Shown here in pieces: positions 47,577-64,000 of a stretch of 64,000 bases of DNA. The stretch's first letter is position 1; every line of letters begins with the position of its first letter. A program made the translations under genes and the position numbers. Origin of the DNA: Xiphophorus maculatus (Eukaryota; Chordata; Actinopteri; Cyprinodontiformes; Poeciliidae); NCBI RefSeq assembly GCF_002775205.1, contig NC_036457.1, forward strand, positions 5,100,024 to 5,164,023, given 5' to 3'. The notes beneath the pieces are model-generated. The model was not told the DNA's origin and did not search any database. It saw only the letters and a program-made list of their open reading frames with translations.

Positions 47577-54534
<6,958 letters not shown>

Positions 54535-54835: not shown

Positions 54836-55283
54836 GAACATCTAAACTGGTTCCAGAATAACCGGTGAACTGGTCTCAGTTGCTGCCGACCTGAACTCCC
54901 AGTAAACTGATTTGAAATGGTTCCAGTTCTCCTCCTGCAGCGACCTAACCGCTAAACTGGTCCCAGCTCACAGGTTTTTCGGTGAAACTGTCGGACCAGT
55001 TTACTAGTTAATTCCCAGTTTATTCTCCAGCAGTAGCTGACTGAACACACGCTCGGCCTAGCTTCTCCCGCTAACACAGTCCCTCCGCTACTACGCTGTA
55101 AATACACCTCTAACGAAACCATCCGCTGCTACAAACATCTTAATCTGAGGTATCAGAGTCCAAATGGGAAGTTCAGGTTGTTGAAGCAACAACAAAACAG
55201 CTTTAAAGGACATTTAAGATCAGAAAACGGATGAACTGTGAAAATAACACGACTAACCTGTGTCAGCGACGGCCAAGGAAGAG

Positions 55284-55577
55284 ACCGGAACATCGCGAGA
55301 CTTGAATTAATCCAATCGCGTCGCTGATCAATAGCATCGCGAGAATTAGATATGTACGCCGTTGTTAATTTAAGATATCGCGAGAGTAAAATTAGATTAA
55401 TTTCTGAAGTTACATCTCCGTCCAGTTGATGGCGGTAATACACAAAGTCAGTAAACTGCCATAAAACCCAACAGAAGAAGAAGAAGAAGAAGAAGCGTAA
55501 AATTAGTAGCATTGCTGTTGTTAATTGTCGGGTTTCCAGCCGGGTTTACGGCCAGCTTCACCCAGTTTAGATCCAAC
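55284..55577. promoter_or_regulatory. Bidirectional RPS7-RNASEH1 promoter with three TCGCGAGA motifs
   Basis: About 295 bases separate the RPS7 TOP-like start (about 55283, minus) from the first RNASEH1 ATG (plus). TCGCGAGA occurs at 55293-55300, 55337-55344 and 55378-55385; the third fits the TMTCGCGANR promoter consensus exactly and the other two differ at one base. This motif is known from TATA-less CpG-island promoters and is bound by BANP. There is no TATA box. A GGCGGTA element lies at about 55425-55497. Confidence 0.7.
55425..55497 (+). repeat. GGCGGTA dispersed hairpin element, copy B
   Basis: CCAGTTGATGGCGGTAATAC, then AAACTGCCATAAAACCCAAC and a GAAGAAG run. It is related to copies near 11492 and 63592 and sits in the RNASEH1 promoter or 5' UTR. 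Confidence 0.55.
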
Positions 55578-55601
55578 ATGACACTCTGGTGGTTCCGCTG
55601 A
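55578..55601 (+). CDS. Upstream ORF of RNASEH1 (7 codons)
   Basis: ATG at 55578 opens seven codons and stops at TGA 55599-55601; the stop overlaps the first RNASEH1 ATG (55601) as TGATG. In mammals a short upstream ORF on the RNASEH1 mRNA is known to limit the mitochondrial isoform and to favour the nuclear one. The same architecture is seen here. Whether the ATG is in the mature 5' UTR depends on the unmapped start site. Confidence 0.6.
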   Translation: MTLWWFR

Positions 55602-58600
55602 TGTTCCGGTTTTGGACTCCGGTCCGGACAGTTCTCAAGAGGTTCTGCAGCGCTTCAGACATGCCGAACCCGAAAGGAAAGTTCTTCTACGCTGTCAGGA
55701 AGGGAGTCAAACCCGGAGTCTACAAGTCATGGTGAGGATCAGTACCGGTGTTCTGACTAGCAGTGCTACCTCGTCAGAATTTCCTACGAAACTTTTAACT
55801 AATTACGGATAGGAACCAGGTTTATTGTGACTCAATAATAATCCAGAACCGGGTGGTTCTGAGTATTTTCTCAGGCTGTTGCTTTCGGAACCGCTGATTA
55901 GTATTAACGCCTCAGCAGCCGCGTCTAGTTATTATGTCAGTAAAATTTAATTTATTTCAGGAATTTAGATCAAAAGTGAAGCTTATATGGTATGCCTTTA
56001 TTTCATACAGACGGATACATTTAACCCATTAGTTTAGTTGATTCTCACTTACAGTCAACGGAAATGCAGCATTTAGTTAAAATAGTCACACAGAAAAAAA
56101 CAAATTTAATGCAGAAATATTGTTTTATGGTCTAAACAGCCGTGGAGGAACTGAGTATAGCAGGAAATGGTCAATATTGTTTACGGAGTAGTATGAGTAG
56201 AAAGTTTAGTAGAAGGAAAAACTAGCAGTCAGTGGTTGCTATGGTGATTCTCTGCCAGTATTTAAAAGCTGTTACACAGTCATCATCAGAACCGTCTGGT
56301 GGGTCCATCTTTGTGTTTCCTGTAGGAGTTTGACAGGTTCAACAGAACCTTCAGGTCCAGTTTCTCCAGAACCGATCAGAACCAAATTTACTGGGAGTAA
56401 ATGAGAGAGTGGGCGTGTCTCACTGATCCCTGAGCTCTGATTGGACAGAAAACAGGAAGTCCTCCAACAGTATAAGGAGTCAGACAGACAATGTTAGGAA
56501 GGAGGAATGGGTTAAATTCAAAAGGTTCTGAAGATTTCACCAGGTCAGAACAAGAACATTCTGGAAAGAGTTCTGTAGAAATGTTTTGTCTAAAATCCTG
56601 ATGACTTTCCTGGTTCTGGTTGTTCTTCCAGGGAAGAGTGTAAGATCCAGGTGGACAAGTTTCCAGCTGCGTCGTTTAAGAAGTTTGGATCAGAACGAGA
56701 CGCCTGGGTGTTCTTCAGAGGAGAAAACCCGTCTGCGGTTCCAGACCACAGCACAGGTGAGCCGGTCCAGACAGGTGAGGAACTGAAGGTTCTGCCTCTA
56801 GAACCTCTAGGAACCAGCAGTAATCCTGCAGACTTGCTCTGAATGGTTCTGGTAGGAACATCTGGACCGATCAGATGGATGGCAGACCTGCAATGAAAGA
56901 AACATGATCTCTGTGTTTTCATCAGAATCTAGGCTGCAGCGTTTTGGATCAGCTGAAACCTTTTAGCAGAACTGGATCTGATTCCTCTGGAACGGTTCTG
57001 TTCCTGATTGCAGTTCTGTTTCCCATCAGTGACCTGGCCTGGAGAGACGGATGTCTCTCTGCTCCCCAGACGGGGCCCAGAACCGGTGGAGTGCATCCCG
57101 CTAGGAAAGAAGAGGCCCCGCCCAGAGGAGGAGGCGGAGCTTCAGCCTAAACGAGCCAAGCCATCAGAGAGCTCGTTAGCAGGAAGCAGTGATGGGTTCA
57201 CCTACATGGGTACCATGATGATGATAGAGCTTCATCCTTAGCTGTGGCCTCCAGTGGTCGGCACCGCTAGCTAAAAAGCTAGCTGCGCTGACCCTGAAGC
57301 ACTAATCAGTAATTTAATTCTGCTAATGCTAACGTGCTATACTAACATGGTGGAACATAAAGTGGAAGCTAAAGTTGTAGCCTCATGTCAACGTGGTATT
57401 TAGTGGGAGATAGTGCTAAAATGCTAACTTCAGCCATATTGACATAGTGCCCTCAGGTGTGCTACAGGACCATGTACCTCCACAGGATCAAATTATTAAC
57501 AGTTAAAAACCAAAACTTCAACATGGAACTTTTGAACTTTTTTCAACTGAAAGTTATCAAAACATGCAACTAAATTATCGCTATAGAATTCATCAGAAAA
57601 AAATTATTTTAGGGGAAGCTAAGTACGCTAAACATTTTAAAAGTTAGCAAAAGAGCTAAATGCTAAAGATTAGCTCTGCTAACAGTGGCCACTCCCAGAC
57701 TGACCTCCGACCTGCTGCTGACCCTCCAGGTGATGCGGTGGTGGTGTACACCGACGGCTGCTGCTCAGCCAACGGGCAGGACCGGGCTCGGGCCGGGATC
57801 GGGGTGTACTGGGGCCGGAACCACCCACTGTGAGTCCACACACACCAACACACCCTCAACTAGCTGCTAACGCTGTGAGGAAGTAACCAGCTGCTGCCTG
57901 TTGGCCAGAAATGTTGCAGAGCGGCTGCAGGGGCGGCAGACCAATCAGAGAGCAGAGATTCAGGTAAGACCTGCCCATCACATCCCACCTCAGAATCACC
58001 GTCCAATCAACACGAGAACAGAGTGCGGCTTTAAAAACAGTTGGAACCTGATTGGTCAGAATGAACTGGTACAGTGCCCTCTAGTGGCTCAACTGCTTCA
58101 GTGCAGCAAAATCCTTTTATTTCTTCCTGTTTGGGGATGATGTACTTTCATTTGTTTCATTGTTCAATTAAAATAATTAATACAATTCTGAGTCTAACAA
58201 GAGCTTAAATTTTAAACAGAATGAAAATGTAATGAATTAGTCTCAGAATAAAACAAAATGTCTGAAGTTTAAAAGACTCGTCACTCTGCGTGTAAACCAA
58301 CACTCAGTTTACCTGTTAACTGACTTGTTAATGACTCATTAGTGGTTAACGACTCGATACCTGGTCATTAACCAGGTAACTGGTCACTGACTAGTTAACT
58401 AGTTAGTGAATCGTTAGTGACTCGTTAGCTGGTTAGTTAGTCGTTAGCTAGTTAATGACTTGTTAGTTACTCGTTAGCTGGTTAATGACTTGTTAGTGAC
58501 TCGTTAGCTGGTTAATGACTCATTAGTGGTTAAAGACTCTATACCTGACTAGTTGGCTGGTTAATTACTCATTAGCTTGTCAAAGACTCGTTAACTGGTT

Positions 58601-59229
58601 AGTGACTCGTAAGTAACTCGGTAGCTGGTTAGTGACTCAGTTGCTGGTTAATGACTTGTTAGTGACTCGTTTAGCTGGTTAGTGACTCGATAATGACTCA
58701 TTCGCTGGTTAGTGACTCGTTAGCTGGTTAATAACTTGTTAGTGACTCGTTTAGCTGGTTAGTGACTCGGTAATGTCTCCGCCCCCAGGCGGCCTGCAGG
58801 GCTCTGGAACTGGCCCGGCAGAACCACCTCCAGAAGCTGGTTCTCTACACTGACAGCAAGTTCACCATCAACGGTGAGTCATTGCCATGGACCTCGGGGG
58901 ACGGCGGGGCCAGGTGACTTCTGACCTCTGACCTCCCGCAGGTGTGACCACCTGGGTGAAGACCTGGAAACTGAACGGCTGGAGGCTGAAGTCTGGCGGT
59001 CCGATCACCAACAAAGAAGACTTTATGGAGCTGGACCGGCTGAACTCTGAGCTGAACGTGGTCTGGGTAAATAACCGGGCCGAACCGGACCGGCTTGCTG
59101 GCACAGAAAGCTGGGCGCTCCTAACTGTCCCTCTCCCTGCAGATGCACGTGCCGGGCCACGCCGGGTACACCGGGAACGAGATGGCTGACCGGCTGTCCA
59201 GGGAGGGAGCAGCCAAGGAGCTGCTGTGA
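55601..59229 (+). CDS. rnaseh1: RNASEH1, ribonuclease H1 (dual nuclear and mitochondrial)
   Basis: Eight coding exons: 55601-55731, 56632-56756, 57030-57209, 57730-57829, 57909-57963, 58789-58873, 58942-59066, 59143-59229. They join in frame to 295 residues; human has 286. Residues 1-20 form a basic presequence ([20 protein letters not shown]) and a second in-frame ATG (55661, residue 21) would give the nuclear form, as in mammals. The hybrid-binding domain follows ([36 protein letters not shown]), then a linker and the catalytic domain with its four acidic residues in VYTDGCC, NQRAEI, LYTDSK and GNEMADRLS. The enzyme cuts RNA in RNA-DNA hybrids, needed for mtDNA replication and R-loop removal. 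The first ATG has a poor context (C at -3) and the second a good one (G at -3). Exon 2 has two in-phase donors. AATAAA is at 59304-59309. Confidence 0.97.
58296..58775 (+). repeat. GTTAGTGACTCGTTAGCTGG tandem array in RNASEH1 intron 5
   Basis: A degenerate array of GTTAGTGACTCGTTAGCTGG, TTAATGACTTG and related units, ending about 14 bases before exon 6. Confidence 0.85.
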
Positions 59230-62465: not shown

Positions 62466-63058
62466 GCTCAGAATAAGTTCAGGATAAAACCAGAATAAGT
62501 TCAGGATAAAACTGGAATAAATTCAGGATAAAACCAGAATAAGTTCAGGATAAAACCAGAATAAGTTCAGGATAAAACCAGAATAAGTTCAGGATAAAAC
62601 CAGAATAAGTTCAGGATAAAACCAGAATAAGTTAAGGATAAAACTGGAATAAATTCAGGATAAAACCAGAATAAATTCAGGATAAAACCAGAATAAGTTC
62701 AGGATAAAACTGGAATAAATTCAGGATAAAACCAGAATAAGTTCAGGATAAAACCAGAATAAGTTCAGGATAAAACTGGAATAAATTCAGGATAAAACCA
62801 GAATAAGTTCAGGATAAAACCAGAATAAGTTCAGGATAAAACCAGAATAAGTTCAGGATAAAACCAGAATAAGTTAAGGATAAAACTGGAATAAATTCAG
62901 GATAAAACCAGAATAAATTCAGGATAAAACCAGAATAAGTTCAGGATAAAACTGGAATAAATTCAGGATAAAACTGGAATAAATTCAGGATAAAACCAGA
63001 ATAAATTCAGGATAAAACTGGAATAAGTTCAGGATAAAACCAGAATAAGTTCAGGATA
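62466..63058 (+). repeat. 22-bp satellite array
   Basis: About 27 tandem copies of TTCAGGATAAAACCAGAATA plus AG. Two main variants alternate in blocks: ACCAGAATAAG and ACTGGAATAAA. Several adjacent blocks repeat the same order of variants, which suggests segmental duplication within the array. Confidence 0.95.
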
Positions 63059-63103
63059 ACTTGTTAAAAAGTAATCACCTCCCTGTTACATAATAAATAA
63101 ACT

Positions 63104-63300: not shown

Positions 63301-63591
63301 AATTAACTGTTTGGACTCAGCTTGGCCGTTTCTTCAGTGAACAGGCCTGATGAAACATGGTTAGCTTCAAGTGTAGCTAACCTTCGTGACCCAGAGAGGT
63401 CAGTTCCTCAAAGTGGGTGGAGCCATGACACGCTGAGGGGCGTGGCCAAGTGTGGGGTTAAGTGGGGGGGGTCAGGAGGGGGCTTTTTTTAACAGAAAAA
63501 TAATTTATCAGATAATATTCCGTCATCTTAAATGAACACAGTTCAATAGAAATCAATTCTCGAATGAGATTCCGGTTCACACTCCATACCA

Positions 63592-63662
63592 GCCGGTGGC
63601 GGTAGTGCACCAATTTTGTTGTTTGTCAACCGCCGAAAAGCATCACAGAAGAAGACGAAAAA
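63592..63662 (+). repeat. GGCGGTA dispersed hairpin element, copy C
   Basis: CCAGCCGGTGGCGGTAGTGC, then GTCAACCGCC and CACAGAAGAAGACG. The GGCGGT and ACCGCC arms form a clear hairpin. This is the best preserved of the three copies. Confidence 0.6.
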
Positions 63663-64000
63663 CAACCTATTGATCTTTTTTGTGTATTTTTTATTATAAT
63701 TGTTGTAGCTCGACAGGCCGTTTTCGATGGTAGTTCGACAGGAAGGAGGCAGAGAGGACAAAGGAACTGAGCTGCGCCCGCTAGCGGCTATTCTTCAAAC
63801 AAAGCTAACGGCTACGGCTAGAAAATAGGCAAGCGGTTAGCCTAGCGGCTAGGGCTAACTGTTAGACTAACGGCTAGGCTAGTGGCTGGAATAAGGTTCA
63901 TCTGTTACTCAGTTACTTAGTCAAACAGTTAGTAATTAGGCTGCCATAGGAGAAAAAAATGGAGGTTAATTTTGCAGTCATATTTTCACCATGTTGTTCA

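Follow-up and report, generated by a model that had tools for sequence, protein, structure and literature searches.

A seven-codon upstream open reading frame ends on the first start codon of RNASEH1 in Xiphophorus maculatus and may restrain the mitochondrial isoform

The window, i.e. the whole stretch of 64,000 nucleotides of Xiphophorus maculatus DNA that was analysed (contig NC_036457.1), contains a gene on the plus strand with the following coding parts, the exon ends of which were placed by eye:

55601..59229, + strand: RNASEH1 coding region, 8 exons, 295 aa, GT-AG at 7/7 introns
55601-55731, 56632-56756, 57030-57209 and 57730-57829, + strand: RNASEH1 exons 1 to 4
57909-57963, 58789-58873, 58942-59066 and 59143-59229, + strand: RNASEH1 exons 5 to 8

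Pfam analysis of the product revealed an RNase_H domain (E 8.3e-41) and an RNase H1 N-terminal domain (E 1.5e-16), and the best PDB match is human RNase H1 (6vrd), with an E value of 2.2e-88. Judging from these matches, the gene is RNASEH1, coding for an RNase H1 that has both the hybrid-binding domain at its N-terminus and the catalytic domain. An earlier note on this DNA had already given it that name, which both Pfam domains and the human match bear out. Between exons 5 and 6, the intron holds a degenerate tandem array (58380-58779) with units like GTTAGTGACTCGTTAGCTG. Another tandem array, with a 22-base unit, 26.9 copies and 92% matches, extends from 62469 to 63059.

The neighbouring gene, on the minus strand, is RPS7, recognised by a Ribosomal_S7e match (E 1.3e-36) of an N-terminal fragment that was joined by eye from three ORFs of the window. 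Its ATG is located at 54534 and a pyrimidine-rich first exon, labelled TOP-like, starts from near 55283 (by eye). Since RNASEH1 is on the plus and RPS7 on the minus strand, the two form a head-to-head pair, an arrangement that is presumably found in human as well. Three copies of TCGCGAGA, at 55293, 55337 and 55378 (spacing of 44 and 41 bases), are the sole ones on both strands of the window, and they lie in what is presumed to be the shared RPS7/RNASEH1 promoter. We take these sites to resemble the BANP-bound TCTCGCGAGA element, the full ten-base form of which does not occur in the window. In addition, an element of the type TGGCGGTARTRCAC ... AGAAGAAGA is present in two diverged copies, at about 55421-55490 and 63588-63665, the former falling in what would be the promoter or leader of RNASEH1. 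When a 14-base pattern taken from the element's own two copies was used, 14/100 shuffles contained at least two matches at up to 2 mismatches; both real copies match the pattern exactly and their similarity reaches past the 14 bases. A scan for bacterial-type promoters gave no match in this stretch, such models not being informative for vertebrate core promoters.

The start of RNASEH1 has the following layout:

55578..55601, + strand: seven-codon upstream ORF (uORF) MTLWWFR with a TGA stop, ATGACACTCTGGTGGTTCCGCTGA, codons ATG ACA CTC TGG TGG TTC CGC TGA
55599..55603, + strand: TGATG, one-base overlap of the uORF stop and the M1 start codon
55601..55660, + strand: M1 start and 20-residue N-terminal extension, predicted mitochondrial presequence (net charge, hydrophobic moment)
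55661..55663, + strand: M2, second in-frame ATG, predicted nuclear start, context AGACATGC

The final A of the uORF TGA (55599-55601) is the first base of the M1 ATG (55601-55603). M2, which is residue 21 of the product, follows exactly 60 bases past the M1 ATG (20 codons) and 59 nt after the uORF stop, the latter being situated 130 nt short of the exon 1 end. Upstream of M1, its frame is closed by a TAG at 55568 and has no ATG after this stop. The upstream ATG (uATG) at 55578 is the sole ATG between 55429 and M1. The ATG at 55429 itself opens 11 codons up to a stop at 55462 and is part of the RNASEH1 leader only if transcription begins upstream of 55429. Inside the uORF, a CTG at 55586-55588 lies in the RNASEH1 frame with A at -3, G at +4 and no stop before M1; used as a near-cognate start, it could in principle yield a slightly longer mitochondrial form.

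The three starts differ in their contexts. The uATG (CCAACATGA) has the best one, with CAAC at -4 to -1 and without G at +4. The M1 context (GCTGATGT) is weak, with C at -3 and T at +4, i.e. neither a -3 purine nor a +4 G, and that of M2 is intermediate, with G at -3 and C at +4. Judged by the consensus, the order is uATG > M2 > M1, as a bottleneck that limits the mitochondrial form would require. A weaker context at M1 than at M2 is what is expected of a uORF-controlled, dual-targeted RNASEH1, a feature reportedly described by Suzuki et al. 2010. In the earlier note, the uORF was placed on the first RNASEH1 ATG with coordinates that proved exact to the base (seven codons, TGATG), and the weak context of that ATG and the second in-frame ATG at 55661, 60 bases further, were reported as they are found here; that the uATG surpasses both in context goes unmentioned there. 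Its description of M2 as having a strong -3 purine holds for the purine, but "strong" gives way to an overall grading as intermediate. According to the available passages of PMC4172775, the start consensus is CAACATGGcG in medaka and AAACATGGC in zebrafish, and in zebrafish embryos expression is most efficient with the top-scoring start context. At -4 to -1, the CAAC of the uATG is identical to the consensus CAACATG given there for medaka and Xenopus; within the window, CAAC precedes the ATG in 17 of the 1755 cases examined.

Chance was assessed on shuffled leaders and on the window itself. For the former, 20,000 dinucleotide shuffles were made per leader length (138, 101 and 61 nt) with the first and last base fixed. 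A sole uATG with an M1-overlapping stop arose in 1.2%, 2.4% and 2.1% of the shuffles, respectively, and any M1-overlapping uATG in 3.1%, 6.5% and 2.7%, while some uATG was present in 45-79% of the shuffled leaders. The window control covered 1755 ATGs on both strands, omitting those less than 150 bases from the upstream or less than 600 from the downstream end. At least 43 open codons follow 298 of them; among these 298, an overlapping uATG of any kind lies within 138 nt in 25 cases and is the sole uATG in eight. Only the ATG at 55601 (1/298) adds a -3 purine at the uATG, a -3 pyrimidine at the start and an in-frame ATG with a -3 purine 12-30 codons on, the context and second-ATG criteria having been set after the site was seen. 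By itself, the stop-overlap geometry is suggestive, not compelling. As no single chance figure is convincing alone, the case is carried by the orthologues.

The 20-residue extension has a net charge of +3 and a hydrophobic moment of 0.699. Among stop-free shuffles, 21% reach its charge and 3.7% reach both charge and moment, and we consider it, with moderate confidence and from these two properties only, to be presequence-like. Folding of the leader with exon 1 (55500-55735) was the same as that of shuffles (z 0.02; 91/200 fold as well), so RNA structure gives the idea of a bottleneck no backing.

The founding paper on the control of human and mouse RNASEH1 by a uORF, M1 and M27 is reportedly that of Suzuki et al. 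2010, according to which mitochondrial RNase H1 is said to be the minor form. In the available passages of PMC11697566, human NM_002936.5 is described as having one uORF of 9 residues that overlaps the main ORF, with a Ribo-Seq initiation peak at the upstream ATG. Changing this ATG to TTG increased a reporter more than fivefold. Oligonucleotides designed to block the uORF caused no rise of RNASEH1, and the authors still deem the uORF bona fide (PMC11697566). As stated in parts of PMC5894942, mitochondrial localisation of human RNASEH1 needs the first 26 residues, and a version starting from Met27 acts in the nucleus. As far as these passages go, the gene studied here resembles its human orthologue in that a short uORF runs into the main ORF and a (here predicted) presequence lies between two in-frame AUGs. 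Repression of the main ORF by the uORF is known from reporters in human, whereas here it is the layout that is known, from the sequence. Moreover, the human uORF has 9 residues and the present one 7, and the human M27 column (M of MFYAVRRG) aligns with F28, M2 being seven residues upstream. The position of M2 outside the column of the human nuclear start and the different uORF length count against strict homology; the former is not deemed essential, M16 being the start used in the fly.

According to the available passages of PMC6433063, Drosophila rnh1 has three AUGs "arranged similarly as in mammals", a short unrelated uORF being followed by M1 and M16 in frame. The M1V variant is exclusively nuclear and M16V mainly mitochondrial. 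The order, a uORF and then two in-frame AUGs, is the same as here, with a start-to-start spacing of 15 codons in the fly, 20 here and 26 in human. On M1 overlap and repression by the fly uORF, these passages of PMC6433063 are silent. The earlier claim that the mammalian logic recurs in a fish finds partial support, in the RNase H1 gene and in the three-AUG layout as in human and fly; M2 is located outside the M27 column.

Relatives and literature were also searched. With an 85-residue N-terminal query, 0/3 pattern matches in viral contigs were confirmed. Among prokaryotic genome contigs, 9/60 were confirmed, all nine in records titled as bacterial; seven of these matches begin only at query residue 27 or 29 and the other two at residue 15. 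Because the collections scanned were viral and prokaryotic, these results have no bearing on a vertebrate leader either way. In the open-licence literature, no publication on a uORF of fish RNASEH1 was found among the matches listed, nor, among those listed for two in-frame AUGs or an RPS7 bidirectional promoter, any on the fish RNASEH1 leader. RNASEH1 is absent from the available main text of PMC4890304, and in the accessible parts of PMC11346376, PMC9410905 and PMC7006045 "upstream open reading frame" occurs solely in the citation of Suzuki et al. 2010. PMC5894942 was set aside as fish evidence, since in the passages available of this zebrafish study the RNASEH1 used is human, and PMC12861698 as independent evidence, since the parts available merely cite Suzuki for alternative starts.

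Given the RNASEH1 identity and the three-AUG match to human and fly, the best reading is that the uORF limits the mitochondrial form by acting as a translational bottleneck on this isoform (probability about 0.7). It builds on the layout, start contexts and gene identity described above, supposes transcription from upstream of 55578, and from these we infer how the AUGs are used and where the products localise. The well-placed uATG at 55578 would capture most scanning ribosomes; after seven codons, these would terminate on a stop that overlaps the M1 AUG and should hardly be able to use M1. Use of M1 would thus be limited to ribosomes leaking past the uATG, and its poor context would let many of these pass M1 too. 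M2 (55661) would be served by this double leaky scanning and by re-initiation across the 59 nt, giving a form without the presequence. Terminated ribosomes that do not restart could, with the stop 130 nt before the exon 1 end, expose the mRNA to nonsense-mediated decay.

On re-initiation, the accessible parts of the mouse-cell study PMC6547434 name Rnaseh1 as one of 240 genes whose translation efficiency differs when the re-initiation factor DENR is lost. CDS-overlapping uORFs are regarded there as unable to support re-initiation except where another start is available further downstream, and the Xiphophorus layout, an overlapping uORF with M2 downstream, is the exception named. DENR-sensitive genes are overall depleted for CDS-overlapping uORFs, and DENR-dependent re-initiation is associated with a longer uORF-CDS spacing (PMC6547434). 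In view of these data and of the distance of only 59 nt, the share of re-initiation at M2 may be small.

A different view is that the uORF arose by chance and is neutral or mildly repressive, like many others in vertebrate mRNAs, with its stop on M1 by coincidence and the isoform choice coming from the weak M1 context only. Some uATG is indeed common in shuffled leaders (45-79%), M1-overlapping ones less so (2.7-6.5%), and according to the available passages of PMC6547434 translated uORFs are found in nearly half of the expressed genes in mouse cells. We nevertheless consider this unlikely: no other ATG lies between 55429 and M1, the context of the uATG comes close to the consensus, and, in the passages available, uORFs are described for both orthologues, one overlapping the main ORF in human and a short one before M1 in the fly (PMC11697566, PMC6433063). 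Less likely still is that the uORF is outside the main mRNA, transcription starting downstream of about 55560 so that the mRNA lacks the uATG or has it too close to the cap for use, and the isoforms come from different transcription starts or from simple leakage of scanning ribosomes past M1 to M2. Against this, the divergent RPS7 first exon near 55283 and the three TCGCGAGA sites hint at a promoter used by both genes and situated well before 55578, with which a transcription start around 55440-55540 would fit.

The TGATG also permits the opposite outcome, in which ribosomes ending the uORF restart on M1 and the uORF feeds the mitochondrial form. A one-base stop-start overlap is the geometry of some viral termination-reinitiation sites. 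Initiation complexes have also been reported to move backward (PMC8593136, passages available). We regard such coupling as very improbable, since the human uORF also overlaps its main ORF and lowers the output of the latter in a reporter (PMC11697566, available passages), and since CDS-overlapping uORFs are held to be re-initiation incompetent unless an alternative start lies downstream (PMC6547434, accessible parts). For the re-initiating ribosomes invoked in the earlier note, this means that a restart at M1 is possible, yet the human reporter result in these passages of PMC11697566 points otherwise.

With a uORF that limits the mitochondrial form as the preferred reading, the site described here is most likely an additional case of the published RNASEH1 uORF logic of human and fly, and "old conserved control" of RNASEH1 translation is a fair hypothesis. 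A broader idea is more doubtful and is offered tentatively: a uORF stop on the mitochondrial RNASEH1 start might be an ancient animal device, from flies to fishes and mammals, in which selection would act on position only, while the peptide, the register and the downstream start drift. Replication of mtDNA requires mitochondrial RNase H1. If true, the fish counterpart would place the uORF device between mammals and insects.
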